Assembly (NCBI RefSeq): GCF_000015725.1
Contig: NC_008825.1
Location: forward strand, 1,798,001 to 1,862,000
Source: Methylibium petroleiphilum PM1
GTDB taxonomy: Bacteria; Pseudomonadota; Gammaproteobacteria; Burkholderiales; Burkholderiaceae_C
DNA length: 64,000 nucleotides
Direction of reading: 5' to 3'
The notes below the pieces were generated by a model. It had not been told where the DNA came from and ran no database searches. It was given only the letters and a program-made list of their open reading frames with translations. The position numbers and the translations under genes are program-made. This document shows, piece after piece, positions 49,128-64,000 of the stretch; within the stretch, counting starts at the first letter, position 1; every line of letters begins with the position of its first letter.

Positions 49128-50122
49128 GGCGCTGCCCCTTCGGCGCTGGATCGGGCGTCGACAACGGCAGCGTCGCGCTGTGGCATCAGCAGGTACAGTG
49201 GTTTGGCCAGCACCCGGAAGTCCAGCGGTGCGCGCATCATCGTCACTTCGCCATCGAAGGCCACCTTCACCCCGCTGCGGCCCTGCGGCAGCGTAGGCCG
49301 CACCACCAGGTGCTCGAACTCGAAGCGCTCGACGCCTGCGGCTTCACCCAGCCTGCCCATGGCGCCATGCAGCATCAGGCCGATCATCGACAGCGTTCCG
49401 ATAGGCCGCAGCACGAGCGCGGCCATGCTGCCGTCGCCTGGCGTGCCGGCCAGGGTGTCATCGGGCTCGGCGCCGAACTGCTGCAGCTGCAGGCGGTTGT
49501 TGCCCACGAAGAGCGTCAAGGTCTGCATGTCGCGCACCTTGCCACCCATCTCGATGTGCAATCGCAAGCGGCGCTGCGCACGAAGCAAAGTCGCACAGGC
49601 TGCCACGAACGCCACCCAGCGGCTGCGACCGAAGCGGGCCTTGTAGGCTTCACGGTCTTCCAGCAGTTCAGGATAGAGCCCGAGACTGGCGTTGACCAGG
49701 AACACGCGGTCGTTGATGCCGGCCACTTGAACCGGCGCAGGCACCGAAAGCAGCAATTGGCGGACGGCATCGGCCGGGTCTGCGGGTATGCCGTGCGTGC
49801 GGGCAAAGTAGTTGAAGGTGCCCTGTGGCACCACGCCCATGGCGCAGCCCGCAGCGTGTGCAGCCTGTGCCACGGTGTTGAGCGTGCCGTCGCCACCGAC
49901 GGCGACCACGGCCGTGCGGGTGGCGATCGCCCTCGTCGCCGCCTGGTGCGACACGCCAATCAACTCGGCGGGGCTGCAGAAGAGCAAGTCACCCCGCCGT
50001 CCACCCGCGCGCAGCGCGGCTTCGACGATTTCGCGCTTCGCCTCCGCGTCGCTGCTGCCCGCCGCCGCATTGACGATGAACTGCAGCGAAGACGTGGGGT
50101 CGATTTCCGGGAGAGCGGCCAT
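49124..50122 (-). CDS. Diacylglycerol-kinase-like lipid kinase
   Basis: This 332-residue protein of the DAGK/YegS family has the nucleotide site VVAVGGDGTLNTVAQA at about 72-87 and PQGTFNYFARTHGIP near 99-113. The C-terminal domain contains VKVAFDGEVT. It would phosphorylate diacylglycerol or a related lipid. ATG 50122 is favoured because sequence before it is poorly conserved. It is followed by the metallophosphoesterase. Confidence 0.85.
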   Translation of the reverse strand: MAALPEIDPTSSLQFIVNAAAGSSDAEAKREIVEAALRAGGRRGDLLFCSPAELIGVSHQAATRAIATRTAVVAVGGDGTLNTVAQAAHAAGCAMGVVPQGTFNYFARTHGIPADPADAVRQLLLSVPAPVQVAGINDRVFLVNASLGLYPELLEDREAYKARFGRSRWVAFVAACATLLRAQRRLRLHIEMGGKVRDMQTLTLFVGNNRLQLQQFGAEPDDTLAGTPGDGSMAALVLRPIGTLSMIGLMLHGAMGRLGEAAGVERFEFEHLVVRPTLPQGRSGVKVAFDGEVTMMRAPLDFRVLAKPLYLLMPQRDAAVVDARSSAEGAAP

Positions 50123-50136
50123 GGCCCAAGGCGCGT

Positions 50137-50655
50137 TCAGGTCTTTTCCCGCGTCAAACGTTCTGCAAAAGAGATGCCGATGGCAGAGAGCACGAAGGTG
50201 AAGTGAATGACAGCCACCATCGTCACGATCTGGATATTCTCCAAAGTCAAATCGCCGCTCAGGTACGTCTTCAAGGCATGCACGCCTGAGATCGAGATGA
50301 TGGCGAATGCAAGCTTCAACTTGAGGTTGTAGGTGTTGACGTGGTCCAGCCAGTCGGGCTTCTTCATGTCCTTCTTGTCGAAGTGCCCCGTGGTCACGAA
50401 GAGCGACACACCGGCGAGCGCGACCACCCACACCAACTGCGCCACCATCGTCATGTCCACCAGTTCGAGCACCTTGATGATCAGGTCGATCTTCTCGAGA
50501 TCGCCGAACAGCAAGGTGCTCATCAGCTTGTAGGTTTCCAGCAGGAACTTTCCCAGAATGCCGAAGATGATCGCCACCAGACCCACATAGAAAAACAACA
50601 TCGTGAATCTCATGCCGTAAAGCAGCGACCCGACCCGTGAAAGCAGCATTTCCAT
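50137..50655 (-). CDS. YqhA-family membrane protein
   Basis: This 172-residue protein matches the YqhA/UPF0114 family: SRVGSLLYGMRFTMLFFYVGL at the start, VDMTMVAQLVWVVALAG in the middle. Three to four membrane segments are predicted. The function is unknown. I use the ATG at 50655. An upstream frame adds 40 residues of low conservation. Confidence 0.8.
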   Translation of the reverse strand: MEMLLSRVGSLLYGMRFTMLFFYVGLVAIIFGILGKFLLETYKLMSTLLFGDLEKIDLIIKVLELVDMTMVAQLVWVVALAGVSLFVTTGHFDKKDMKKPDWLDHVNTYNLKLKLAFAIISISGVHALKTYLSGDLTLENIQIVTMVAVIHFTFVLSAIGISFAERLTREKT

Positions 50656-50771
50656 TCTTGTTTTCCTTGAAACAGAGCCGACAATTACGTCGAACAGCGA
50701 ACCAGCCGAAGCTTCCTGCGCCACGCAGGCCAGCTCGCCCAGGCGACTGAAGCTGACCGAGGCGGACGATT

Positions 50772-51860
50772 TCAATCGTGGCGCAGCAGGTCACCGAAGA
50801 CGGTGTGCTCGCCCTCCTTGCGATCGGCGCCAGGCGCGTCGTACAGCACGAGCCAGCGCGCCTTGCCGCCCGACAGCGCCGGCGGCAGGTCACAGATGGC
50901 TTCGGCACGGTTGGTGCCGCGACCATGTGGCAGGGGCACCGACTCGGTCAGCGCCGACTCGAAGCGCACCGGCTCGCGGTTCGCGGCCAGCAAGGGCCGG
51001 GCGGCGGGCCACTTGAAGACGCGGATGTCGCCGTTCAGCACCATCGTCGGGCCGGCCAGGATGTAGAGGTCGTCGCCGGAGAAGTGCAGGTCCCGCACGC
51101 CCAGGCCGTCGAGCTGCAGGAAGTGCTTGCGGATCAGCGTGCCGCTGTCGTCGAGGGGCGCCAGGCGCAGCTGGTCACCGCGGGTCTCGACCGCGACCTC
51201 GAGCAGCGCCGACCAACCGCGCAGCACCGGGCCGCGCAGGCCGAGCAGCAGCCGGCGGCCGTCCACGGCCAGGCCTTCGATGTCGAAGCCGTTGTCCTTT
51301 CCCGGGATGGCCAAATACGGTCCGAAGTGGGGGTCATCGGCGAGCGCACGGGTGAGCAGGTTCGTTTGCGCATCACCCTTCAGGCGCAGCGCCCGTCGGC
51401 CGTCCTTGGCCTGCCGTACCAGGCAGGGCTCGCCCTTGGCGTCAGGCTCGATGGGCAGGCAGGCCAGCAGGCGCCGATTGCCGTCGAGCGCCACCTTCGA
51501 CAAGCGCTTGGCGTTGTCGGCGTGGTCCCGGTCCGGTTTGGCGTTCTTGCGCTTCAGGCCATGCGAGCCCACCAGCCACAGGTAACCGTCGGCCACGGCC
51601 ATGCCTTCCAGATCGGCCTCTTCCCCGGCCGTGCCGGGCAGGTCCAGCAGATCGGCGAGCGGGAAGTCGCGCACCTCGCCGAAGCGCAAAGCCTCGCGCC
51701 CCACCGGGGCGAGCAGGCGCAGGCGGTCCAGGCCGCAGGCTTCGTCGCCCGCCACCCAGAGCCAGTCGCCGGTGAAGGCCGCGCCGGACAGATTCGATTG
51801 AACCAGGGAGTCAGGAGCGAACTCCAGACGGACGGCATTGGCGGTTCGAGCGTTGGGCAT
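50772..51860 (-). CDS. DUF3616 family protein
   Basis: This 362-residue protein has the repeated aromatic and acidic segments of DUF3616: LSGAAFTGDWLWVAGDE, DLEGMAVADGYLWLVGSHG and DIEGLAVDGRRLLLGLRGPV, suggesting a beta-propeller. The binding target is unknown. No signal peptide is visible. ATG 51860 follows GGAGAAG. Location among stress genes is the only functional clue. Confidence 0.8.
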   Translation of the reverse strand: MPNARTANAVRLEFAPDSLVQSNLSGAAFTGDWLWVAGDEACGLDRLRLLAPVGREALRFGEVRDFPLADLLDLPGTAGEEADLEGMAVADGYLWLVGSHGLKRKNAKPDRDHADNAKRLSKVALDGNRRLLACLPIEPDAKGEPCLVRQAKDGRRALRLKGDAQTNLLTRALADDPHFGPYLAIPGKDNGFDIEGLAVDGRRLLLGLRGPVLRGWSALLEVAVETRGDQLRLAPLDDSGTLIRKHFLQLDGLGVRDLHFSGDDLYILAGPTMVLNGDIRVFKWPAARPLLAANREPVRFESALTESVPLPHGRGTNRAEAICDLPPALSGGKARWLVLYDAPGADRKEGEHTVFGDLLRHD

Positions 51861-52063
51861 CTGGTGCTTCTCCAAAGGGTGACGGGCCAGCAGGCACGCG
51901 TGCTGCAATGCGTGCCGGCCTGAGCCGCCAAACCCCGAAGTCTGCGGCCGAAGCTCCTTCCTATGTTCAGGTTTATCCGATGTTCACGTTCTCGAAAGAC
52001 TGCTTTTCCAGAACCGCCAGGCACCCCACATTCCGTCTGTCCCTCAACCGATGGAGATCCGTG

Positions 52064-52405
52064 ATGCAAGTGCTCTTCAAGTCCCGCCATCCGCAAGCCA
52101 CTGACTTGCGCGACCTGACCGAGCGCCGCGTGCGCTTCGTGCTGCGACGCCTGGGCTGGCTCGTGCCGCGCGCCGAGGTGCAGATGTCGGACGTGAACGG
52201 GCCGCGCGGCGGCATCGACAAGCGCTGCCAGGTGGAACTCCGGACCGATGGCGCCGGGTCGGTGGTCGTCGCCTCCGTGGCGAGCGACTGGCGCACGGCG
52301 CTGGACAACGCGCTGGCGCGTGCCGCGCGGTTCCTGATGCGCTTGTGGCGCCGGGGCAGTGACTCCCGTCGCATGCGCCAGCGCTTCATCGGTCACGAAC
52401 GCTGA
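52064..52405 (+). CDS. HPF/RaiA-type ribosome hibernation factor
   Basis: This 113-residue protein begins MQVLFKSRHPQATDLRD and fits the short ribosome-hibernation fold (RRVRFVLRRLGWLVPRAEVQMSDVNG). It is expected to bind the 30S subunit and silence ribosomes in stress. GGAG lies seven bases before ATG 52064. A longer upstream frame is rejected. The basic C-terminal tail may strengthen RNA binding. Confidence 0.75.
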   Translation: MQVLFKSRHPQATDLRDLTERRVRFVLRRLGWLVPRAEVQMSDVNGPRGGIDKRCQVELRTDGAGSVVVASVASDWRTALDNALARAARFLMRLWRRGSDSRRMRQRFIGHER

Positions 52406-52432
52406 ACTCGAACGACCTCAGGACTCGACTCC

Positions 52433-53149
52433 ATGAACTCCATGACGCCCATCCCCTCGACCACTCGCCCGGAGACCGCGCATTCGGCGTCTATCGCCGC
52501 AGGCAACGCGACACCCACGGATGTCGTAGGTACGAGCCGTGTGCTGCGCAACACATACGCCTTGCTGTCGATGACGTTGCTGTTCAGCGCGGCCATCGCT
52601 GCTGCCAGCGTGACGTTCCAGCTGCCGGCGCCGGGCATCCTGCTGACCCTGGGCGGCTACTTCGGCCTGCTCTTTGCTGTCTACAAGTTCAAGAACAGCG
52701 GCTGGGCCTTGCCGGCTGTGTTTGCGCTGACGGGCTTCATGGGCTACTCCCTGGGGCCGGTGTTGGCCAAGTCGCTGGCACTGCCCGGCGGTGCACAGGT
52801 CGTGACGATGGCCCTGGCGGCCACGGGCGCCACCTTCCTGGCCTTGTCGGCCTGGGTCTTGACGACCCGTCGCGACTTCAGCTTCATGGGCGGCTTCCTG
52901 TTCGCCGGCATGGTCATCGCGCTGATTGCCGGCCTGGGCGCGGTGTTCCTGCAGGTTCCGGCGCTGGGCCTGGCCGTCGCCGCGATGGTGGCGCTGCTGT
53001 CGGCCGGCCTGATCCTGTACGAGACCAGTCGCATCGTCACCGGTGGCGAAACCAACTACGTGCTGGCCACCGTCGGGCTGTACGTCTCGATCTTCAACCT
53101 GTTCACGAGTCTGCTCAGCCTGTTCGGCTTCGGCAACTCGGATGAATGA
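52433..53149 (+). CDS. yccA: Bax inhibitor-1/YccA family membrane protein
   Basis: This 238-residue protein has seven hydrophobic segments and the family core FMGYSLGPVLAKSLALPGG and GLILYETSRIVTGGETNYV. Bacterial YccA modulates the FtsH protease. The second Met at 52442 may be the real start. It follows the HPF-like gene by 27 bases, probably in one operon. Confidence 0.88.
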   Translation: MNSMTPIPSTTRPETAHSASIAAGNATPTDVVGTSRVLRNTYALLSMTLLFSAAIAAASVTFQLPAPGILLTLGGYFGLLFAVYKFKNSGWALPAVFALTGFMGYSLGPVLAKSLALPGGAQVVTMALAATGATFLALSAWVLTTRRDFSFMGGFLFAGMVIALIAGLGAVFLQVPALGLAVAAMVALLSAGLILYETSRIVTGGETNYVLATVGLYVSIFNLFTSLLSLFGFGNSDE

Positions 53150-53169
53150 ACCCTCATCAGGAGCACCCC

Positions 53170-53439
53170 ATGAAATGCCCCACCTGCACCGACACCGCAC
53201 TCGTGATGAGCGACCGCCAGGGCGTCGAGATCGACTACTGCCCGCAATGCCGCGGCGTGTGGCTGGACCGCGGCGAACTCGACAAGCTGATCGAGCGCTC
53301 GGCGAGCCTGGCACCACCGGTCCCAGCCGGCAACGCGGCCGCCCGATCACAGCCCCAGTTCGCGGACTCCGATTACGAGCATGGTCGAGGCCAGCAGGGC
53401 GGCCGCAGGAAGTCCTGGCTAAGCAACATCTTCGACTGA
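53170..53439 (+). CDS. Zinc-ribbon (TFIIB-type) domain protein
   Basis: This 89-residue protein has one N-terminal zinc ribbon, MKCPTC...DYCPQCRGVWLDRGEL, whose two CPxC pairs lie about 22 residues apart. A low-complexity basic tail ends SWLSNIFD. The family is common and uncharacterised. AGGAG at 53159 supports ATG 53170. Confidence 0.85.
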   Translation: MKCPTCTDTALVMSDRQGVEIDYCPQCRGVWLDRGELDKLIERSASLAPPVPAGNAAARSQPQFADSDYEHGRGQQGGRRKSWLSNIFD

Positions 53440-53472
53440 CCCGCGACCCACTGCACCCAAGGGAGACCCATG

Positions 53473-53889
53473 ATGCGCAGTTATCCCGTGAACAGCCCGC
53501 AGGCCGCAGCCCGCATCGTCGCACTGACGGTGGTCGCCGATGGCGACATCGGCGACGCTGAGATCAAGTGGCTCGACCGCCTTGCCGTGCATGAGCAGTT
53601 GGGTCTGGCGCGGCATGAGTTGCACGCGCTGCTGGACACCTTCTGCGAGGATCTGCTGTCCAGCGACCAGTTGAAGTGGGCCGACGCCTGCCCGGTGGAC
53701 GAGCGCACGCTGGCGGACCTGATGGGTGAAGTCCAGGACCCCGCGCTACGGCTGAAGTTGCTGCGCTTGTGTGTCGAGCTTGCAGAAGTCGACGCGCATG
53801 TTGACGACGGTGAATCGAGCGTTCTAATCGCCGCGGTCGAGCATTGGGGCTTGCACCGTGAGATGTTTCGGCCGTCGTCTCGGAACTGA
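53473..53889 (+). CDS. TerB-like protein (paralogue B)
   Basis: This 138-residue helical protein is related to the gene at 47524-47958, with the same YPVNSPQAAARIVAL start, DPALRLKLLRLC and HVDDGESSV. The Met at 53473 is preferred to the one at 53470 because its GGGAG spacing matches the paralogue. It is the fourth gene after HPF, BI-1 and zinc ribbon, so it is probably part of a stress operon. Confidence 0.72.
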   Translation: MRSYPVNSPQAAARIVALTVVADGDIGDAEIKWLDRLAVHEQLGLARHELHALLDTFCEDLLSSDQLKWADACPVDERTLADLMGEVQDPALRLKLLRLCVELAEVDAHVDDGESSVLIAAVEHWGLHREMFRPSSRN

Positions 53890-54086
53890 CCGGCTCGCCC
53901 TGCCTGATCAATCCGAGGTGTGGGTCTGTGGGCTTTCGGCGGGGCGTGTCGGAAGTGCCCCATGGCGTGCCCATGATCGGGTCGAGATCGATGTTGGCTG
54001 TCCGCTATGGAGACACAACGGCTATGTCTGCTGATGGCCGGGAGTGTGAGTCCAGACCCGTGCCTGACAGCGGACGTTCGCGTATC

Positions 54087-54117
54087 GCCGCCCCGGTCAT
54101 CAACTGGGGCGGCTTTT
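54087..54117 (+). terminator. Rho-independent terminator downstream of the TerB-like B operon
   Basis: GCCGCCCC (54087-54094) pairs with GGGGCGGC (54106-54113) around an 11-base loop, followed by TTTT. It points to plus-strand transcripts. It lies about 200 bases after the TerB-like gene, inside the repeat-flanked integrase unit. Confidence 0.7.
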
Positions 54118-54129
54118 CATTGCAAGCGA

Positions 54130-54753
54130 TCAGATCTCGGTCTGCTCAGAGATCTCGAGGGCGTCGTCAACCTCGATGCCGAGGTATCTCACCGTGGACT
54201 CCAGCTTGGAGTGTCCGAGGAGCAGCTGAACCGCGCGCAGGTTCTTGGTCCGACGGTAGATCAGCGTCGCCTTCGTCCTGCGCATCGAGTGCGTACCGTA
54301 CTCGGCGCGGTCCAGGCCGAGTTCGTCGACCCAGTGCCCGAGGATGCGGGCGTACTGCCGGGTGCCCAGGTGTGGCGAGTCATGAAGACGGCTGGGGAAC
54401 AGGAAGTCGTCGGGCTTCAGCTCCGCCTGCTTGATCCAAGCCTGCAGCGCCTCCCGAGTCGCTGGCGTGATTTCGAACTGCACCGGGCGCTGGGTCTTGT
54501 GCTGCATGACGATGGCACGCGTAGCCAACTGATCGCCGTGACACACGTCTCGGACCTTCAAGGCAACCAGATCGCAGCCTCGGAGCTTGCTATCGATACC
54601 CAGGTTGAAGAGCGCAAGTTCACGCACTCGGTGGTCCATCTGCAGACGCACACGGAGCGCCCAGATGTCCTTGAGCTTGAACGGGGCCTTCTGCCCCACG
54701 ATCTTGCCCTTGTTCCAAGGCTCGCGACGAGCCGTATTGGCAACGGAACCCAT
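54130..54753 (-). CDS. Short tyrosine recombinase/integrase
   Basis: This 207-residue protein has the catalytic residues of the tyrosine family: Arg58 (LRGCDL), Lys86, His155 and Arg158 (HSMRR), His181 (LLGHSKLES) and nucleophile Tyr190. The N-terminal arm- or core-binding domain of larger integrases is missing. Short relatives exist as stand-alone recombinases. No tRNA or phage genes lie beside it. Confidence 0.88.
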   Translation of the reverse strand: MGSVANTARREPWNKGKIVGQKAPFKLKDIWALRVRLQMDHRVRELALFNLGIDSKLRGCDLVALKVRDVCHGDQLATRAIVMQHKTQRPVQFEITPATREALQAWIKQAELKPDDFLFPSRLHDSPHLGTRQYARILGHWVDELGLDRAEYGTHSMRRTKATLIYRRTKNLRAVQLLLGHSKLESTVRYLGIEVDDALEISEQTEI

Positions 54754-54989
54754 GATGGTCTCCCATCAAGTTGAGGGCCGGTCAAGATGCGCCTGTGCGG
54801 GACCGGGGCGCTTGCCCTGAGTCAAGGCCTGTCGTCTTGCCCCGCCAGGCCGAAGTCCGCTACCGGGCACGGGGCGAGACTCACAGTCCCGGCCAGTTCC
54901 TGCCGCTCGTGTCCGACTGCTTTGGCTGAATCTGGCCCACAGTGCAATGGACGACGCCGCCGCCGAGGCGCGCGGGCGTCCCGCGCTTG

Positions 54990-55484
54990 TCATCGGTGGC
55001 TGTTCGCTGGGCCCGTCGCTTCAATGGCAACGTGGTCGACGCCTTTCCGCGAGAACCGCGATGCCGCGCGCCGATAGTCGGCCGTCATTTGCGGCGTCAT
55101 CAACTCGAGCATCACCGTGTTCTCGATCCAGAACTCGATGACGTGGTTCGTGCCGCGCGACAGCTGGACGGCGCGCCAGCCCTCGCGACTCGCCAGCGCA
55201 AAGATCCCGGTCGCGTCGAGCGCCACCGACACTGCGGCATGGGTCGCGACGTAGGGTGACGCGTCGGAGACATGACGAAAGTTCGCCTGACCCTGGCCCG
55301 CATCGGGGAACATCTCGGTGCCGACGGGATACACCTCGATGGCGGTGCCGTGCTCGTCGCCCGCCCAGGCGATGAACGAATCACGGTAGGGACCGAAGCC
55401 GGTGAGCGTGCCGCCGAACATCTCGGTCAGCACCGAGGCCACGTGCCTCGGGTCGCGGGCGGGCAAAGACAGGTGGTGAATCAT
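54990..55484 (-). CDS. VOC (glyoxalase-fold) family protein
   Basis: This 164-residue protein has the paired beta-alpha modules of the vicinal oxygen chelate family: MIHHLSLPARDPRHVASVL, and FIAWAGDEHGTAIEVYP with a possible Glu ligand. His residues could complete a metal site. It overlaps the DJ-1 gene by four bases. It may be a dioxygenase, isomerase or binding protein. Confidence 0.8.
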   Translation of the reverse strand: MIHHLSLPARDPRHVASVLTEMFGGTLTGFGPYRDSFIAWAGDEHGTAIEVYPVGTEMFPDAGQGQANFRHVSDASPYVATHAAVSVALDATGIFALASREGWRAVQLSRGTNHVIEFWIENTVMLELMTPQMTADYRRAASRFSRKGVDHVAIEATGPANSHR

Positions 55485-56215
55485 TGGGCCCCCAGCGGAT
55501 CGGCGACGGCCTGCGGCGCCGGCAGAAAGACCGGCTCCCACGCATCCTGCAACCGGCTGGCGACGGCCGGGTCGTCGTTCATCACCGGGCCGAGCAGCGC
55601 GAACAGCGACTCACCGTGCAGCGGCAGCGCGTCCCATCCCGCGGCAAGTGCGCGGCCGGCCTCGTCGCCGAAGAGATGCCAGACCAGCGCCATCGTGCTC
55701 GGGTGGACCGTGCCCGCACCGCCCGAGGAGAAGATCCGGTTCTCCGCGTCGATCTTCCACGCCCTGCGCGGCTGGACGACGCGGGTGCCTTCGGCCGGCA
55801 GCCTGCGCGACAGGGTGGCCGGCGAGGTGACTTCCAGCCCCTGCAGGACGCCGGCGCGGTGCAGCACCGCCATGCCGGCGCAGTTGCCGGCGATCCAGCG
55901 GCCCTCGGCGCGATGGGCGCGCAGGAAGTCCAGCAGCATTGGGTTCAGTGACTGCGCGCCGGCGCCGATGCCGCCCGGAATGTAGACCAGGTCGAACCGT
56001 TCGTCGGACTCGATCTTCCGGTCGATGTGGACGCGGGTGCCCATCTGCGTGGCGACGCTGCTGCCGCCCTGGAAGCTGCCGAGCACGACGTCGAGCTTTT
56101 CGCCACGGTTGGCCATGGTCCATGCCTGGGCCTTGAACAATTCCCACGGAATCAGCAGATCCTGTTCTCCCGCGTTGGGGAATGCCAGGACCAGGATGGA
56201 GCGGATCGTCTTCAT
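55481..56215 (-). CDS. DJ-1/PfpI-family protein
   Basis: From ATG 56215 this 244-residue protein has the PfpI fold with the nucleophile-elbow Cys in IAGNCAGMAVLHRAG (Cys near 112). An ILVLAFPNAGEQDLLIPWE start is visible. The family includes glyoxalases, hydratases and chaperones, and some are transcription regulators. The C-terminal region is long and could carry substrate specificity. The neighbouring VOC gene is likely its partner. Confidence 0.8.
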   Translation of the reverse strand: MKTIRSILVLAFPNAGEQDLLIPWELFKAQAWTMANRGEKLDVVLGSFQGGSSVATQMGTRVHIDRKIESDERFDLVYIPGGIGAGAQSLNPMLLDFLRAHRAEGRWIAGNCAGMAVLHRAGVLQGLEVTSPATLSRRLPAEGTRVVQPRRAWKIDAENRIFSSGGAGTVHPSTMALVWHLFGDEAGRALAAGWDALPLHGESLFALLGPVMNDDPAVASRLQDAWEPVFLPAPQAVADPLGAQ

Positions 56216-56302
56216 GATGTTGGGCCTTGTGACCAGAGGATGAATAGGCGCGTGCGCTTGGTCGCGGCGCTCGGCCCGAGATCGGAGCAACGAAGGAGCT
56301 GT

Positions 56303-56935
56303 TCAGTCGCGCGCCGTCGGCTTGGTGCCAGCGGCGGGCTGCAGCAGTTCGCTGAAATCAGCCGCCGCCTTGCGCAAGGCCAGTTGGGCCGGCGCAAGCC
56401 GGCTGAAGCGCACCTTCATGTCGGACAAGGGAGTGAAATAGCCCAGCGAAAGTGCCGCCAGTTGCTGGCCGGTGTCGGGTGCAAGGGCCTCGATCTCGAC
56501 GGCCGCGCCACCGCGGTCGAGTGGTGCAAACAGCAGCAGCGCGGAAACGGCATTGAGGGACGGCGAAACCGTCTCGACGCGCGTGATGGCTGCGCGCAGC
56601 ACCGCCGGGTGTCCCGTCTGTGCGCGCGGCAGCGTGTGGACACGTTCGAGCAGTGCGCCGCGCAGGTGGCCGAGCAGGGCGCGACGCTCTTCTTCGGTGA
56701 TGTCGGTCCCCGTGTCGGCGCGCCACTCGATGGCGTCGATGGTCACTCGCGCAGGGTCGATGACCATGACTGAACGACTGCTCGCGGAGCCACGGTCGGC
56801 ATCGGGCGTGAGCGCGGCGTAGCTGCTCAGGAAGTCCGCGCGCGGCGGGACCATCACCGTGCTGCAGGCGCTGGCGGCGGCCACGCAGGCGACCGCGATG
56901 GCGTAGCGGACGGCCGTCACGACGCACCCCCGCAT
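56303..56935 (-). CDS. DUF3313 family lipoprotein
   Basis: This protein of about 210 residues has a lipoprotein signal with lipobox ASAC (Cys near 24). It has the DUF3313 features FLSSYAALTP and VMVIDPARVTIDAIEWR. It is expected at the outer membrane, with function unknown. ATG 56935 is used. A GTG at 56920 overlapping the monooxygenase stop (GTGA) would give a shorter signal peptide and may be the true start. Confidence 0.75.
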   Translation of the reverse strand: MRGCVVTAVRYAIAVACVAAASACSTVMVPPRADFLSSYAALTPDADRGSASSRSVMVIDPARVTIDAIEWRADTGTDITEEERRALLGHLRGALLERVHTLPRAQTGHPAVLRAAITRVETVSPSLNAVSALLLFAPLDRGGAAVEIEALAPDTGQQLAALSLGYFTPLSDMKVRFSRLAPAQLALRKAAADFSELLQPAAGTKPTARD

Positions 56936-58389
56936 TCGAGCTTGCCCATCGATCGGGTAACACAGCGGGCATTGCGCCGCGTTTCGGAGGCGGGGCCTGC
57001 TTCACCGTCGATGAGCAAGCCGATCTCGCCGCGCGTGAGGCCGATGTCCTTGAGCTGGTCATCGTCGAGCTGCCACAGGATCCTCGCGTCGTCGCGGTTC
57101 TGCCGCGCTCGCGCACGGCGTTCCATGAAGCGTTGCAAGGCACCCGTGATCGATTTCCACAAAGCCGACCCGGACCGGGCCACGGCGCCGTGACGACCCC
57201 CAGCTGACAGTTCGCTCGGCCGATAGACCAGCCCAGACAACTGCCACGCCAGCCGGCGCCGCACCGCGGACGGCCTCGACACTGTTGACAGCAGCAGGTT
57301 GCGCAGTCGGCGCAGGCCGGGGCGGGCGGCGGCCATGCGTGTCAGCCGATCGGTGAATGCGACGATCTGCACGGCCACCGGACGACGTTGCGCGCTGTAG
57401 GCGTCCAGCGCGCCCATGTTGCCCGCGAGTGCGGCGACGAGCGCATCGGCCAGCGTCACGGCATCCAGGATGCCGGCATTCATGCCCTGCCCGCCAGCGG
57501 GGCTGTGCACGTGCGCAGCGTCACCGGCGAGCAGCACGCGGCCGGCGCAGTAGGTATCGGCGATGCGATGGTGAACACGGAAGCGCGAGCTCCACAGCAC
57601 TTCGTGGACGACCGCTGGCTCACGCTCGGGGCCGCGGGTGTCCAGCAACGCCTGCAAGAATGCCGCGTCGGCCTTGTCGGGCGCCTCGGCGACCGTGGCG
57701 ACGATGCGGTGCACGCCGTCGGCCAGTGGAGCGACGACCACCATGCCGGCTGCCGAGAAATAGAGGATCACTTCGTCGCTGGGCACCGCACCACTCAAGC
57801 GCACATCGGCCAGAACGAAGGTTTCGCCGTAGCTGCCTCCCGTGAACGGGATGCCCGCCTGTTCACGCACGGCGCTGTGCATCCCGTCGGCACCCACGAT
57901 GAAGCGCGCCGTCACCCAGCTGCCATCGTCCAGCAGCGCTGTTGCCTTCGCGTCGTCCTGCTTCAGGCCGATCAGCGTGCGCGGGCGCAACACCTGCCCG
58001 CCCAGGCCGAGCAGGCGCTCCAGCAGGATGCCTTCGGTGGTCGCCTGCGAGATCATCAGCGTATAGGGATATGCCGTCGGCAGGTCCTCGAACCCGATCG
58101 GCACCAGCACGCGGTCGCGATCGCGAATCGTGAAGCGCTTCGCCGGGATGCCGCGTGACACGAGCGTGTCCGTCACGCCCAGCGGTTCGAGCACTTCCAG
58201 CGTGCGGGCGTGGACAACCGCGGCGCGCGACGTGTTGGCACCGGCCGCCTGGCGATCGACGAGCAGGGTGCGCACCCCGCGGGTGGCCAGCGCAGTCGCG
58301 AGCGTGAGGCCGGTGGGGCCGGCACCGACGATCAGCACGTCGGTGTCGATGCCGGAAGCGGCGGAATTGACGGACGGAGATGCTTGCAT
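56917..58389 (-). CDS. FAD-dependent monooxygenase fused to a DUF1127 domain
   Basis: The first ~400 residues form an aromatic-ring-type flavin monooxygenase: GAGPTG near 22-27, IVGADGMHS in the middle and LLAGDAAHVHSPAGGQGMN near 300. Residues about 420-460 then read as DUF1127 (RRARARQNRDDARIL, LKDIGLTRGEI), normally a separate small protein. The total of 490 residues gives one uninterrupted frame. The substrate is unknown. The divergent gene at 58528 is a likely regulator. Confidence 0.8.
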   Translation of the reverse strand: MQASPSVNSAASGIDTDVLIVGAGPTGLTLATALATRGVRTLLVDRQAAGANTSRAAVVHARTLEVLEPLGVTDTLVSRGIPAKRFTIRDRDRVLVPIGFEDLPTAYPYTLMISQATTEGILLERLLGLGGQVLRPRTLIGLKQDDAKATALLDDGSWVTARFIVGADGMHSAVREQAGIPFTGGSYGETFVLADVRLSGAVPSDEVILYFSAAGMVVVAPLADGVHRIVATVAEAPDKADAAFLQALLDTRGPEREPAVVHEVLWSSRFRVHHRIADTYCAGRVLLAGDAAHVHSPAGGQGMNAGILDAVTLADALVAALAGNMGALDAYSAQRRPVAVQIVAFTDRLTRMAAARPGLRRLRNLLLSTVSRPSAVRRRLAWQLSGLVYRPSELSAGGRHGAVARSGSALWKSITGALQRFMERRARARQNRDDARILWQLDDDQLKDIGLTRGEIGLLIDGEAGPASETRRNARCVTRSMGKLECGGAS

Positions 58390-58527
58390 GGTGCGGTCCT
58401 TCGGTCGGGTGGTGCGTTTGATCGCGGTGACCGAGAGGCTAGGGATAGCGGCCCGGCAAGTCGTGCCGGAGCGGTGTCGAAACGGTGTCGATCCCGTACA
58501 GTCCCACCACGCCGATCCCTTCGCGCC

Positions 58528-61461
58528 ATGAACGAATCCCAGCCTCTGCTGATCCGTTTCGGCGACTTCGAACTCGACGAGGCGAACGCCATGCTCAAGC
58601 GCCACGAGCAGGCGCTGGATCTGCCGCCGCGGGCGTTCTCGGTGCTGTGCGAGCTGGTGCGGCGCCCCGGGCAACTGGTGACGAAGGACATGCTGCTCGA
58701 CGCCGTCTGGGGGCATCACCACGTCAGCGAATCGGTGCTGAAGTCGGCCGTGCGGACGTTGCGGGCCGCTTTCGACGACGACGCGAGAGCGCCGAGATTC
58801 ATCGAGACCGCCTCGCGGCGCGGCTACCGGTTCATCGCGGTGCCCGGCCCCGAGCGGCGTCCCACTTCGGTCGCTCGCTCGAACGACGGTTCGGCCGTGC
58901 CGGTCGTGGAAGCGCCGGCAGTCTCCGGGACCTCGGGCGGCACCCGGTTGGTCGGGCGCGGCGCGGCGCTGGATCGGCTGCATGCGGCGTGGGATCGCGC
59001 CCGGGCGGGGCAGCACCAGTTGTGCTGGCTGGCCGGCGAGGCCGGGGTCGGCAAGACGACCCTGGTCGACGACTTTGCGGCCTCGCTCGGCCCGGTCGCG
59101 TTCGCGCAGGGGCAATGTGTCGAGCAACACGGCCCAAGCGAGCCGTACCTGCCGGTGCTCGAGGCCCTGGCCACGCTGTGTCGCGCCGATCCCGCGCTGG
59201 CCACTTTGCTGCGCAGCGTCGCACCGACCTGGCTGCTGCAGCTGCCGTGGCTGTGCAGCGAGGCCGAGCGCGACAGCCTGCGCCGTGAACTGGCCGGCAC
59301 GAGCCAGGCCCGCATGCTGCGGGAGTTCGGCGAACTGCTGGACCGCTGTACCCAGGACCGGCCGCTGCTGCTGGTCACCGAGGACCTGCACTGGAGTGAT
59401 CAGGCCACCGTGACCCTGCTCAACCATGTGGCACGCCGGCGCGGCAAGGCCTGCTGGATGTGGCTGGCCACCTTCCGTGCGGCCGAGGTGATCGCCGAAG
59501 ACCATCCGTTGAAGGCCGTGCGGCACGAACTGCGGCTGCACCGGCTGGTGGACGAAATCCTGCTCGATCCGTTCTCGGAGCGTGAACTGGCCGCCTATGT
59601 GTCGCGGCGGCTCGGTGGTATCGCCGGGTCCGAGTCCTTCGTGCAGGCGCTGCACCGCCACACCGACGGATTGCCCCTGTTCGTGGCGAACGTCGTCGAC
59701 GAACTGCTGACCCAGGGCGCGCTGCATGCCGGCGCCGTGGTGCGTGACGCCCCGCTTGCCTTCGAGACGCTGTCGGTACCGGAGAGCCTGGCGGGCATCA
59801 TGGAGCGGCAGATCCTTCGCCTTCCGGCCGACCAGATCGCGCTGCTGGAGGCTGCCAGCGCGTGCGGCGTCGAATTCAGTCCGACGGTGGTGGCGCAGGT
59901 GCTTGCGCGGAATGTCGACGAGGTGGCACGGCAATGCGACCTGCTGGCCGGACGACAGCAATGGCTGGTGCCGGCCATCGAGGAGCACGCCGCAGCCGAC
60001 GCGGCGGCGCCCCGCTACGCCTTCCGTCATGCGCTGGTTCGTCATGTGTTCCACGACCGCATGGGCGCGCTGGCACGGGCTCAGCTGCACCGCCGTGTCG
60101 CGCTGGTGCTGGCCGGTGCTGCGGCATCCGGGGCCGTCGTCTCGGCCGCCGAGCTAGCGACGCAGTTCGAACTGGGGCAGGACCCTGACGCGGCGCTGCC
60201 CCACGTCGCAGCGGCTGCGGCCGCCGCGTTGCAGCAGTTCGCGCCGGCCGACGCCTTGCGCCTCGCCGACCGCGGGCTGGCGATCGCCCGTCGCCGCCGA
60301 TCCGGCGCGTCGGGGCAGGACGTGCTGGCCACGCTGCACACCTTGCGCGGCGCGGCAGCAGCGCAGCTGGTGGGGGTCAGCGCGGACGAGACGCTGCAGT
60401 CGTTCGAGCAGGCGCAGGCGGCCCTGGGTGGCTTGCCGACACATCCGCTGCGCAGCATGGCGCTGCACGGGCTGGGGCTGGGGCTGTTCCTGCGCGGCGC
60501 ACTCGCCCCGGCGCGCGAGCTGGCGCAGCGCAGCCTCGCGCAGGCGCTGCAACGCGACGACGCTGTGCTGGTGGTGACGGCCTGCGACCTGCTCGGGCAG
60601 ATGCTCAAGCTCGAAGGCCCGCCGCTCGAAGCGATCGCCGTGCTTGAGCAGGGCATCCAGGCGGCAGCGGGGCTCGACGAGCAGACGCTGCAGACGGCCT
60701 TCGTGCTCGACCCGCTCGTCAACATGCAGGCCGCGCTGGCGATCCCGTTGCTGCTGGCCGGCTTCGACCAGCGTGCAAAGGTCCAGTCCGAGCTGGCGCT
60801 GGCACGTGCCCGGGCCCTGAAGCAGCCCATGGCACGCATGATTTCGACCTGGCTGGCGGCGCTGTGCGAACTGCGCCGCGACGACCGAGTCCAGGTTGCT
60901 GCCCTCGCGGCGCAGTTGAGCGCGATCACCGACGAGGGTGCGTTGGCGCATGGCGAAGGCCCCAGCCAGTGGTTCCGCGGCCTGGTGCAGGCCTGGTCGG
61001 ACGCGCCTGCGGAGGGCTACGCACAGATAGCCCGCGCTTACAGACGCTACGCGCAGGTCGGCATGTCGTACGGCTCGTCGGAGGTGCTGGGCTATGCCAC
61101 CGAGGCGTTGATCCTCGCGCGGGACGGCGCTCGCGCGCTGCAGCAGGCTGAAGAGGCACTCGACATGGCGGCGCGCCTGGAGGACCACTCCTACCGGGTC
61201 CGGCTGCTGCTGCTGAAGCGGCACGCTCTGCTGGCTCAAGGCGCGGAGCGAGACGCCGCCGCCGCCGCCCGGGAGGCCCTGGCCGAAGCTCGCCGCCAGC
61301 GATCCCCGTGGCTCGAAATGACCGTCCTGGTCGAACTCTGCGACGGTCCGCACGCGGACACCGGGGACGTCGAGGCATTGCGCAAGGTGGTCACCGGCAT
61401 GCCGGCGGGCAGCACTGCACCGTTGATGAACCGCGCCCGCGCCTTGCTGGGCGACCGCTGA
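58528..61461 (+). CDS. Large winged-helix, AAA-ATPase, helical-repeat regulator
   Basis: This 977-residue protein has an OmpR-type winged helix at about 7-105 (LPPRAFSVLCELVRRPG, SRRGYRFIAVPG). A predicted ATPase follows, with Walker A GEAGVGKTT (170-178) and Walker B region LLLVTEDLHWSD. A long helical, TPR-like C-terminal half makes up the rest. Such proteins sense a signal through the repeats and switch a promoter. It is divergent from the monooxygenase. No strong ribosome binding site is visible, so translation may be weak. Confidence 0.8.
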   Translation: MNESQPLLIRFGDFELDEANAMLKRHEQALDLPPRAFSVLCELVRRPGQLVTKDMLLDAVWGHHHVSESVLKSAVRTLRAAFDDDARAPRFIETASRRGYRFIAVPGPERRPTSVARSNDGSAVPVVEAPAVSGTSGGTRLVGRGAALDRLHAAWDRARAGQHQLCWLAGEAGVGKTTLVDDFAASLGPVAFAQGQCVEQHGPSEPYLPVLEALATLCRADPALATLLRSVAPTWLLQLPWLCSEAERDSLRRELAGTSQARMLREFGELLDRCTQDRPLLLVTEDLHWSDQATVTLLNHVARRRGKACWMWLATFRAAEVIAEDHPLKAVRHELRLHRLVDEILLDPFSERELAAYVSRRLGGIAGSESFVQALHRHTDGLPLFVANVVDELLTQGALHAGAVVRDAPLAFETLSVPESLAGIMERQILRLPADQIALLEAASACGVEFSPTVVAQVLARNVDEVARQCDLLAGRQQWLVPAIEEHAAADAAAPRYAFRHALVRHVFHDRMGALARAQLHRRVALVLAGAAASGAVVSAAELATQFELGQDPDAALPHVAAAAAAALQQFAPADALRLADRGLAIARRRRSGASGQDVLATLHTLRGAAAAQLVGVSADETLQSFEQAQAALGGLPTHPLRSMALHGLGLGLFLRGALAPARELAQRSLAQALQRDDAVLVVTACDLLGQMLKLEGPPLEAIAVLEQGIQAAAGLDEQTLQTAFVLDPLVNMQAALAIPLLLAGFDQRAKVQSELALARARALKQPMARMISTWLAALCELRRDDRVQVAALAAQLSAITDEGALAHGEGPSQWFRGLVQAWSDAPAEGYAQIARAYRRYAQVGMSYGSSEVLGYATEALILARDGARALQQAEEALDMAARLEDHSYRVRLLLLKRHALLAQGAERDAAAAAREALAEARRQRSPWLEMTVLVELCDGPHADTGDVEALRKVVTGMPAGSTAPLMNRARALLGDR

Positions 61462-61563
61462 GCGGGGTATCGCCCGCGCACTCGACACCGAATCGACACC
61501 GATTCGGCACGACTGCCCGGCGCAGGGCGCTTACGCTGGCCCATCTCGATCGAACGCACCGCC

Positions 61564-61791
61564 ATGACACTGAACGCCGTCCCCTCCCATCCCGGCAGCC
61601 TGTGCTACGTGCTCAAGCTGCACCGCGATTCGCGTCCCGCGCAAGGCCTGATCGCGGGCCTGATCGAACATGTCGCCACGGGCGAATCGGTCCCGTTCGA
61701 CGATGCCGCGCAACTCGTCGCGGCGCTGCTGGCGCATGCGGCCACGGACGCGGCGCAATCCTGTCACCAAACCCGAGGGGAGCCGTCGTGA
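61564..61791 (+). CDS. Small conserved protein, 75 residues
   Basis: A soluble 75-residue protein contains GSLCYVLKLHRDSRP and RLIEHVATGE-like segments (GLIEHVATGESVPFDD). Its last bases overlap the ASCH-domain gene (GTGA), so the two are co-translated. I recognise it only as a small conserved hypothetical. No catalytic residues are clear. Confidence 0.55.
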   Translation: MTLNAVPSHPGSLCYVLKLHRDSRPAQGLIAGLIEHVATGESVPFDDAAQLVAALLAHAATDAAQSCHQTRGEPS

Positions 61792-62282
61792 TCCCGCCGT
61801 CGATGCGCACGATCTGGGAAGCGTATGGCGCTGCCATCGGGAGGGACCGCTCGTCCGACTTCTACGAGCCGTTCCACTTCCACGACAACAATCAGGGCGC
61901 CCTGGAACTCGCGACGCTGGTGCTGCAAGGCACCAAGCGCGGCAGTGCCAGCCTGGTCTGGACCTACGAGCACGACAACAAGCGGCCGCCGTGGCCCGGC
62001 AGCCTCAGCATCATGACCGACTGGCTCGGCACCCCGCTGGGCATCATCGAAACACGCACGATCGAAGCTGTCCCGTTCGACGACGTCACGGCGGAATTCG
62101 CGGCAAGCGAGGGGGAGGGGGATCTGTCGCTTCGATACTGGCGGCAGGGCCACTGGGACTACTTCACGCGAGAATGCAGGCGCATCGGCCGCCGGCCCGA
62201 CCCCAGGATGCTCGTATTCTGCGAGCGCTTCGACCTGGTGTTTGCCATGAACCCCGGCGTCCCTCACGCCCCGGCCTCCTGA
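61788..62282 (+). CDS. ASCH-domain protein
   Basis: This 164-residue protein matches ASCH: LVLQGTKRGSASLVWTYEH, SIMTDWLGTPLGIIETR and EGEGDLSLRYWRQGHWDYF. ASCH domains resemble RNA-binding PUA folds and some act as nucleotide hydrolases. GTG at 61788 follows GAGGGGAG and overlaps the small gene's stop. ATG at 61803 is an alternative. Confidence 0.85.
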   Translation: MIPPSMRTIWEAYGAAIGRDRSSDFYEPFHFHDNNQGALELATLVLQGTKRGSASLVWTYEHDNKRPPWPGSLSIMTDWLGTPLGIIETRTIEAVPFDDVTAEFAASEGEGDLSLRYWRQGHWDYFTRECRRIGRRPDPRMLVFCERFDLVFAMNPGVPHAPAS

Positions 62283-62892
62283 GCGTCCGCTCATCGGCAG
62301 GACGCAGGGCCGCTCCTACAACTGCTTTGGGTCGACAGTGACCCATCGCGCCGAGGATGAGCAGTCGTTCGCCTTGGCGCCGACGAGGCTTGACCTAGTT
62401 TGGTGGGCCTGGGCCGCCGGCCGCCGCAGGTCGCCGGCAATGTCAGCAGTACCCGTTCAATAGGGCCGTCGTTGCGCCAGCCCGTTCTAGGCCGAACGAC
62501 CGCAAGATGACTACGACCGTGAGCTCGAGGGCTGGCGCCGACAGACCGCAATCGCTGCGCTGCTGCCGCCCAGGCTGGCGTCGCGACGTGCGGCAGCGGG
62601 GTCGAGCGGGCAGGTTCAAGCCGGCAGGAAGAAGTCGGGCAAGCAGCGCGGAGCGGCGGCGCGCTACAGTCGAGCCGATGAAGTGTAGCCAGCGAAGCGC
62701 TTGCTCTAGACCTGACGGTACTTTGGACGGTAAATCGCCGATTCGAGCCCTTGGCTCCCTCGGCTATTGATCATTGAGTGGGAATAGGGCGATCTGCAGC
62801 GGGGCGGGTGTCGTCGCACGGCAGCTTTGCCTCGTCAGATCAGATCGGCGCGGGTTGACAACGACTTGCGGTGGTGCCTCGATTGAATATAA
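62283..62892. other. Gene-poor stretch before the iron uptake genes
   Basis: About 610 bases between the ASCH gene and the Fur box carry only short, Arg-rich frames with no recognised family. No RNA gene is obvious. The last 60 bases are AT-rich and likely promoter. Confidence 0.4.
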
Positions 62893-62911
62893 GATAACGC
62901 GAATTATTATC
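62893..62911. promoter_or_regulatory. Fur box upstream of a TonB receptor operon
   Basis: GATAACGCGAATTATTATC agrees with the 19-bp Fur consensus at about 15 positions. It lies in an AT-rich island about 30 bases before the small membrane protein gene. Iron-replete Fur would be expected to repress both downstream genes. Confidence 0.7.
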
Positions 62912-62940
62912 ATTCGCGGTATTTTTGATCGAACCATCCC

Positions 62941-63138
62941 ATGGATTCAATTGCCGCCCGCCTTTGGGTTTGGCCGGTCGTTCTGGGTGTCTTGACGGCT
63001 ACCGGCCTCGTGTCGGCGTTGTTGTCGGATGCCTGGGGCGACGTGTGGTCGTGGTTCGCGCTCAGTGTGCCGGTTGCGGTCATGACTTGGCATGGCGCAC
63101 GCCGACGCGTGCGGCCCGCCACCGATCGAACCCCCTAA
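62941..63138 (+). CDS. Small membrane protein preceding a siderophore receptor
   Basis: This 65-residue protein has two hydrophobic segments (WVWPVVLGVLTATGLVSALL and WFALSVPVAVMTWHG) and a basic tail. Similar small proteins precede TonB-dependent siderophore receptors in related bacteria. The function is unknown. It is ten bases from the receptor gene and shares its Fur box. Confidence 0.7.
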   Translation: MDSIAARLWVWPVVLGVLTATGLVSALLSDAWGDVWSWFALSVPVAVMTWHGARRRVRPATDRTP

Positions 63139-63148
63139 GGAACAGACG

Positions 63149-64000
63149 ATGAGAACACTCGCCCCCGTGGCGCTGGCTGCGGCTATGGCCTGTCAGCTCC
63201 CCGCCGCGTACGCGCAATCCGAAACGCCATCGGCCCCGGCCGACGCGAACGCCACCGTGACGCTGCCGCCGATCACCGTGAAGGCCAGTGCCGACGCCTC
63301 GGCGCAAGGGCTGTCCCCGGCGTTTCCGGGCGGGCAGGTGGCGCGCGGCGGGCGCGCCGGCATCCTCGGCACCAAGGACAACCTGGACACGCCGTTCAGC
63401 ATCACCAGCTACACCAACGAACTGATCCAGGATCGCCAGGCCAGGAGCGTCGGCGACGTGCTGCAGAACGATCCGGGCGTGCGCGTGGCGCGCGGCTTCG
63501 GCAACTTCCAGGAGTCGTACTTCATCCGCGGCTTCATCCTCGGCTCCGACGACGTGGCCTACAACGGCCTGTACAACCTGCTGCCGCGCCAGTACATCGC
63601 GACGGAATTGTTCGAGCGCGTGGAGGTGTTGCGTGGCGCGTCGGCCTTCCTGTCCGGCGCCACGCCGTCGGGGGGTGGCCTCGGCGGCAGCATCAACCTG
63701 CTGCCCAAGCGCGCCTCCAACGAAGACCTGAACCGCGTGACGGTCGGCGCGGCCAGCGGGCCGCAGGGCAGCGCGGCCGTGGACATTTCCCGTCGCTTCG
63801 GTCCGGACCGGAGCACCGGCTTGCGCCTGAACGCGGCTTACCGTGATGGTGACACCGCGGTCGACGAGGAAAAGACCCGTCTCGGCCTCGTCTCGTTGGG
63901 CGCGGACTGGCGCAGCCGCGACGTGCGACTGTCCGGCGACATCGGCTTCCAGGACAACCGGCTGAAGCGCACCCGCAGCAGCGTGACGCTGGGCGATTTC
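63149..64000 (+). CDS. TonB-dependent siderophore receptor (N-terminal 284 residues, runs off the window)
   Basis: The gene starts at ATG 63149 and stays open to the window end. It has a Sec signal peptide (cleavage near residue 22) and a TonB-box-like start (VTLPPITVKA). The plug domain carries RSVGDVLQNDPGVRV and FYIRGF-like SYFIRGF, then VEVLRGASAFLSGA near 160. It should import a ferric siderophore across the outer membrane. The barrel is not in the window. Confidence 0.88.
   Translation, partial: MRTLAPVALAAAMACQLPAAYAQSETPSAPADANATVTLPPITVKASADASAQGLSPAFPGGQVARGGRAGILGTKDNLDTPFSITSYTNELIQDRQARSVGDVLQNDPGVRVARGFGNFQESYFIRGFILGSDDVAYNGLYNLLPRQYIATELFERVEVLRGASAFLSGATPSGGGLGGSINLLPKRASNEDLNRVTVGAASGPQGSAAVDISRRFGPDRSTGLRLNAAYRDGDTAVDEEKTRLGLVSLGADWRSRDVRLSGDIGFQDNRLKRTRSSVTLGDF

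Follow-up and report, generated by a model that had tools for sequence, protein, structure and literature searches.

A flavin monooxygenase frame that runs into a DUF1127 domain in Methylibium petroleiphilum PM1, probably through loss of a stop codon

In the 64,000-nucleotide stretch of the Methylibium petroleiphilum PM1 genome analysed here (referred to as the window), a single open frame encodes a flavin monooxygenase followed by a DUF1127 domain. The best explanation is that two genes, once separate, were joined by loss of the stop between them, so that ribosomes read through; as far as sampled, with one genome per species searched, the fusion is restricted to this species. Loss of a stop codon had been raised in the initial annotation as one of two possible origins, and it is now strongly favoured, as 24 out of 24 distinct orthologs of the enzyme stop where the extra segment begins. 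The fusion seems to be a chance outcome of how the two genes lie, and not a novel type of enzyme.

The fused frame and its two domains

The frame, on the reverse strand, begins with ATG at 58389, comprises 490 codons and closes with a stop at 56917. The enzyme start is preceded by AAGGA, with a duplex energy of -5.4 kcal/mol. FAD_binding_3 (Pfam PF01494) was detected at residues 15-346 (E = 1.7e-70, 238.4 bits against a cut-off of 22), covering the full profile (1-349), and DUF1127 (Pfam PF06568) at residues 422-456 (E = 9.1e-10, 38.6 bits against a cut-off of 23.3, profile positions 2-36 of 37). Both domain calls of the initial annotation were correct, as were its in-frame fusion and the coordinates 56917-58389. 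Many monooxygenase models of NCBIfam also matched the 490-residue protein, with the cut-off reached by 0 of the 25 models listed.

The monooxygenase part contains the stretches VGAGPTG, GADGMHSAVR and AGDAAHVHSPAGGQGMN, which we take to be the flavin/NAD(P)H motifs GxGxxG, DG and GD, and their key residues are invariant or nearly so in 22 aligned sequences. At 139 positions that are conserved in the other 17 members, the window's protein (P0001) differs in 5; the corresponding values for the other members range from 0 to 6.

A structure model was obtained with AlphaFold2 from the 22-sequence alignment. As far as about residue 390, confidence lay mostly at 70-97; it fell below 50 in the linker (residues 393-418) and was 46-65 in the DUF1127 helices. 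The monooxygenase fold is predicted to be intact and separate from the tail. The model gives no sign that the tail packs on the enzyme, and the low confidence in this region leaves packing possible.

The best fold matches in the PDB included PnpA (6ain_B, TM-score 0.82 by target length), OxyS and rifampin monooxygenases, in agreement with the sequence search. The same predicted fold is shared with the group A (FAD_binding_3) enzymes rifampin monooxygenase (5vqb, 5kow), OxyS (4k2x), CabE/PgaE (2qa2, 2qa1) and PnpA (6ain), and sequence matches to group A monooxygenases extend to about residue 380-394 of the window's protein. Identity in the fold alignments was 29-34% with OxyS, rifampin monooxygenase and CabE/PgaE, and about 25% with PnpA. 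The assignment to the monooxygenase family, whose reaction would be hydroxylation of an aromatic or polyketide substrate with NAD(P)H and O2, is clear; since none of the listed NCBIfam models reached its cut-off and identity to these group A enzymes is about 25-34%, the substrate is not inferable. The subfamily of 390 residues stops where rifampin monooxygenase and PgaE go on to an extra C-terminal domain, which is thioredoxin-like, whereas in the window's protein DUF1127 is found there. The coordinates of all features are listed in Table 1.

Table 1. Features of the fused frame and its surroundings (positions in the window)
Feature	Position	Strand	Basis
Flavin monooxygenase, complete, codons 1-390	57220..58389	-	FAD_binding_3 and motifs; full length of its orthologs
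Junction, codons 391-402	57184..57219	-	Ortholog comparison; first stops in the three forward frames 52 codons or more away
Shine-Dalgarno-like GGGGGT	57196..57201	-	12 bases upstream of the GTG; duplex energy with the 16S tail -9.1 kcal/mol
In-frame GTG, codon 403, probable former DUF1127 start that may still be in use	57181..57183	-	Duplex, distance to motif
DUF1127 open frame, 88 codons and stop if begun at codon 403	56917..57183	-	Frame translation
DUF1127 domain proper, residues 422-456	57022..57126	-	Pfam
DUF3313 lipoprotein-like gene, its first 19 bases overlapping the end of the fused frame	56303..56935	-	Frame and domain search
DJ-1/PfpI family protein, next after the DUF3313 gene	55481..56290	-	Frame and domain search
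Phage-type integrase beside the region	54130..54753	-	Domain search and genus comparison
Large divergent regulator (Trans_reg_C, AAA_16, weak TPR)	58528..61461	+	Domain search

End of the enzyme in relatives and the junction

Genome contigs were scanned for relatives of the enzyme, yielding 80 loci, 20 of them (L033-L052) at 60-74% identity and 60 (L053-L112) below 45%. In all 20 closer loci, a stop codon lies directly past the residue aligned with 390, mostly after LSGLVYR. Their hosts are Aquabacterium, Methylibium, Aquincola, Rubrivivax, Piscinibacter, an uncultured Burkholderiales, a proteobacterial MAG and Actinomycetes such as Herbidospora, Planotetraspora, Phytoactinopolyspora and Embleya. 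One of these genes (L050) is broken by a frame shift further upstream, and its end is the same as in the other orthologs.

Within the same family, the enzyme is present in 12 of 399 genomes, including the genome under study. It ends at the equivalent of residue 390 in ten of the 11 others, and slightly earlier in the remaining one (L123, 51% identity). Judging by their identical ends and flanks, six of these 11 appear to duplicate L033, L034, L035, L038, L039 and L051. The 20 loci and four further ones give 24 distinct orthologs with at least 60% identity, and all 24 end at the residue 390 equivalent; a conserved architecture of monooxygenase and DUF1127 occurs in 0 of the 24. When the 22 aligned sequences were analysed by hmmscan, FAD_binding_3 was detected in 22 and DUF1127 in one, the window's own.

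The DNA behind the enzyme was also considered. Reading three frames by eye up to 600 bases downstream at 19 loci (for L041, 6 bases only) revealed no DUF1127 gene behind the enzyme, and the C-terminus, used as query around the enzyme loci of relatives, found no DUF1127 either. Several tblastn alignments continued past residue 390 (L038, L120, L049, L121 and L122, of which L120, L121 and L122 were treated as duplicates of L038, L039 and L051); all of them pass through a stop, and behind the stop in L038 and L049 no DUF1127 motif was seen by eye. The 60 distant relatives (L053 onwards, up to 44% identity) were inspected by their last 45 residues: they are mostly about 500 residues long with other C-termini, and no DUF1127 motif was visible by eye in this segment.

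As all 24 distinct orthologs stop at residue 390 and none carries DUF1127 behind it, the enzyme is, by this comparison, complete at residue 390, and the DUF1127 tail is an addition seen here only. An old, conserved two-domain enzyme was rejected, as the tail is absent from all orthologs. The initial annotation had named as grounds for refutation relatives in which a stop at this point separates two genes. Half of this was observed: the stop was present in every relative, an adjoining DUF1127 gene in none.

At the junction, codon 391 is CCG in the window and TGA, TAG or TAA in the orthologs. In the three forward frames, the first stops past residue 390 follow after 100, 286 and 52 codons. An assembly or sequencing artefact would suit a fusion known from a single genome, but the change from a stop to CCG takes at least two base changes, and after a one-base insertion or deletion the nearest stop would still be 52 or more codons away, which excludes a single-base error as the cause. 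With an assembly of two contigs rated 100% complete and 0.35% contaminated, we consider such an artefact very improbable. The spacer was also compared with the 3' flanks of relatives, and homology was rejected: the likeness seen for L033 and L034 was reached by 194 and 345 of 500 shuffles, respectively. No mutation path at the junction is claimed, as the downstream DNA aligns with relatives no better than shuffles.

Start site and distribution of the DUF1127 segment

Between codon 380 and the LKDIG motif at residue 446, five in-frame start codons were scored for duplex formation with the 16S tail. The GTG at codon 403, located 43 codons upstream of the motif, reached the energy given in Table 1, compared with -3.3 to -4.1 kcal/mol for the other four candidates; the best of the 35 in-frame start codons inside the enzyme reached -6.2 kcal/mol. 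In the whole window, 52 of 5127 ATG, GTG and TTG triplets have a duplex of -9.1 kcal/mol or stronger, so that the chance of such a duplex is 1% per start and about 5% with five candidates. A 12-base spacing between Shine-Dalgarno sequence and start is longer than ideal.

Two free DUF1127 genes, L002 from this genome and L124, its ortholog in the genus, have their strongest-duplex start (-8.4 and -6.9 kcal/mol) also 43 codons before the motif, while the start lies 46 to 54 codons before it in the other free DUF1127 genes inspected; the starts of the free genes were chosen by the analyst. Since codon 403 has the strongest duplex of the frame and lies at the same 43-codon distance as in L002 and L124, it probably represents the old start of a DUF1127 gene. 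A start codon and a ribosome binding site between the two halves, proposed as a check by the initial annotation, thus both exist as sequence. With the internal GTG as the former start, the C-terminal 80 residues of which it spoke would be residues 403-490. DUF1127 is typically a small independent protein; here it is in frame with the enzyme, yet has its own GTG and Shine-Dalgarno-like stretch.

A whole-genome search detected two DUF1127 copies in the own genome, the fused one scoring better. The free copy (L002) lies between UppP-like and LysR-like frames (names assigned by eye); of five further genomes of the genus, one retains it, as L124. It shares with the fused copy the domain and the strong Shine-Dalgarno-like start at the same distance, but it is a separate gene located elsewhere. 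Derivation of the fused copy from this free copy was rejected, as the sequences are not close by eye.

In searches with the fused DUF1127 copy, and leaving aside its own locus, 399 family genomes yielded two weak matches and 398 phylum genomes none (E <= 1e-4); plasmids gave no match. The domain is uncommon in the order, with 20 of 399 genomes (E <= 0.001) compared with 97 of 329 in the phylum sample. The past of the tail as a free gene is suggested by its start site.

Long frames containing DUF1127 were surveyed by eye and without a gene finder, taking frames of at least 300 residues among the matches listed by score for the order and phylum samples, which for the phylum sample covers the stronger matches. 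Besides the own frame, the order sample contained five such frames (G713, G685, G042, G600 and G663) and the phylum sample three (G911, G975 and G993). In G042, G663, G911 and G975, the long frame looks by eye like a chance open frame. In two species of one genus (G713 and G685, loci L146 and L150), the DUF1127 frame runs without a stop into a class IV aminotransferase, which keeps its own AGGAG and ATG in L150; L146 is without that 30-base stretch. In G600 (L154), it runs without a stop into a transporter-like protein (frame of 447 residues), and in G993 (L195), DUF1127 stands ahead of an uncharacterised protein with a signal-peptide-like stretch, with no stop between them (313 residues).

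Judged by these frames, the running of DUF1127 into a neighbouring gene is nothing unique, but the pair with a monooxygenase was seen once. As to other proteins with both domains, for which the initial annotation had suggested a search, none with DUF1127 behind a monooxygenase was present among the matches listed, apart from the own frame.

Origin, products and surroundings of the frame

The favoured course of events would be as follows. An oxygenase gene with a product of about 390 residues, from a subfamily common to Burkholderiales and Actinomycetes, would have been acquired, probably horizontally, and an unrelated small DUF1127 gene would have been located 36 bases downstream of it. A mutation would then have removed the stop after residue 390, and as the few codons between the genes chanced to contain no stop and to keep the frame, ribosomes would run through DUF1127 to its stop; free DUF1127 may perhaps still be made from the internal start at codon 403. 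Under this stop-loss reading, the full fused protein is probably made, the enzyme presumably still works, given its intact predicted fold separate from the tail, and the tail is most likely a passive passenger. The frame would then be a clear case of gene fusion in which the second gene has kept its former start site.

Certain observations count against stop loss. The unfused pair is found side by side in no relative, so that the intermediate state is unseen; the DUF1127 part has no close homolog, so that its history as a free gene follows from the start site only; and that site combines a long Shine-Dalgarno spacing with a duplex that has the mentioned chance of about 5% over five candidates.

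A further reading concerns the present products rather than the way the frame arose, and is compatible with a stop-loss origin: the frame would give both the fused enzyme and a free DUF1127 protein of 88 residues from codon 403, with the free form doing the work and the fused form as a by-product. The strongest Shine-Dalgarno-like duplex of the frame lies exactly at the expected start, and L150, where a DUF1127 frame runs into an aminotransferase with its own AGGAG and ATG, offers a parallel from another lineage. Against this stand the spacing of the site and a sigma-70 scan of positions 56200-58700, in which no promoter-like site was found, and we regard dual output as possible but rather doubtful. 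A terminator scan of these positions also found nothing. It is less likely still that this is a working two-product gene, in which the tailed oxygenase and a free DUF1127 from the GTG at 57183 would be produced together, tying the amount of a small regulator to the acquired oxygenase, while through its tail the enzyme is linked to the partners of the free protein. Were the two-product reading correct, it would illustrate how a small protein can become coupled to an enzyme by stop loss and yet retain its free form.

The initial annotation had also suggested that the tail localises or regulates the enzyme, for which no support was found. On this view, DUF1127 would have been retained as an adaptor at the C-terminus, attaching the oxygenase to RNA, a sensor kinase or the membrane and thereby positioning or regulating the enzyme. 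Neither half shows decay, both domains exceed their cut-offs, and the number of deviating conserved positions lies within the range of the other members. Partners of DUF1127 proteins have been reported: CcaF1 binds RNA (as cited in PMC11707872), a DUF1127 protein binds the sensor kinase PhoR (PMC12501420), and YjiS associates with the membrane (PMC11707872). For YjiS, no RNA binding was found in PMC11707872, so RNA binding is not assumable for any given DUF1127 protein, and, as the DUF1127 proteins described there differ in this way, no function is transferable to the tail. Moreover, the fusion occurs in one species only with no tailed ortholog, the linker is of low confidence and the domain lacks confident packing contacts in the model, and a working internal start would uncouple both halves anyway. 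A functional fusion is thus conceivable but quite unlikely, and a fused domain in one genome alone is not evidence of a functional link.

Free DUF1127 proteins, such as YjiS of enteric bacteria, CcaF1 of Rhodobacter and the SDPs of Agrobacterium, resemble the tail in their Arg-rich start and DIGL-type end. They differ in that they are free small proteins, whereas the DUF1127 of the window is in one frame with the enzyme, an arrangement present in no relative of the enzyme. Among the papers searched, none pairs DUF1127 with a monooxygenase, the 30 listed with DUF1127 include no title dealing with a fusion, and a broader search on gene fusions gave nothing on DUF1127 among the 10 matches listed. 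The recurrence of fused DUF1127 frames (L146/L150, L154 and L195) may be a sign that such fusions have a use, which would count against a stop-loss accident, and those of L146/L150 and L154 would make it testable why DUF1127 frames run into their neighbours.

Regarding the surroundings, a genome of the same genus (G001) matches the window from 62773 onwards at 92%, and the enzyme region has no full match there. The segment 54026-62772 is likely a species-specific island. When relatives were searched for the regulator, a match over its full length (41%) lay near the enzyme at L037 only, with a short weak match at L036. The enzyme subfamily, 60-74% identical to the window's copy, occurs in Burkholderiales and Actinomycetes and is patchy in the family, which suggests horizontal spread. 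The lack of a full match to the enzyme region in G001 and the match of the integrase elsewhere, together with close orthologs in Actinomycetes, suggest horizontal gain of the oxygenase gene. No tRNA that might serve as integration site was found at 50000-64000, and base composition showed no step marking foreign DNA. The integrase region (54026-54792) matches G001 at a different place, and many partial matches to it were observed in another genome, G005.
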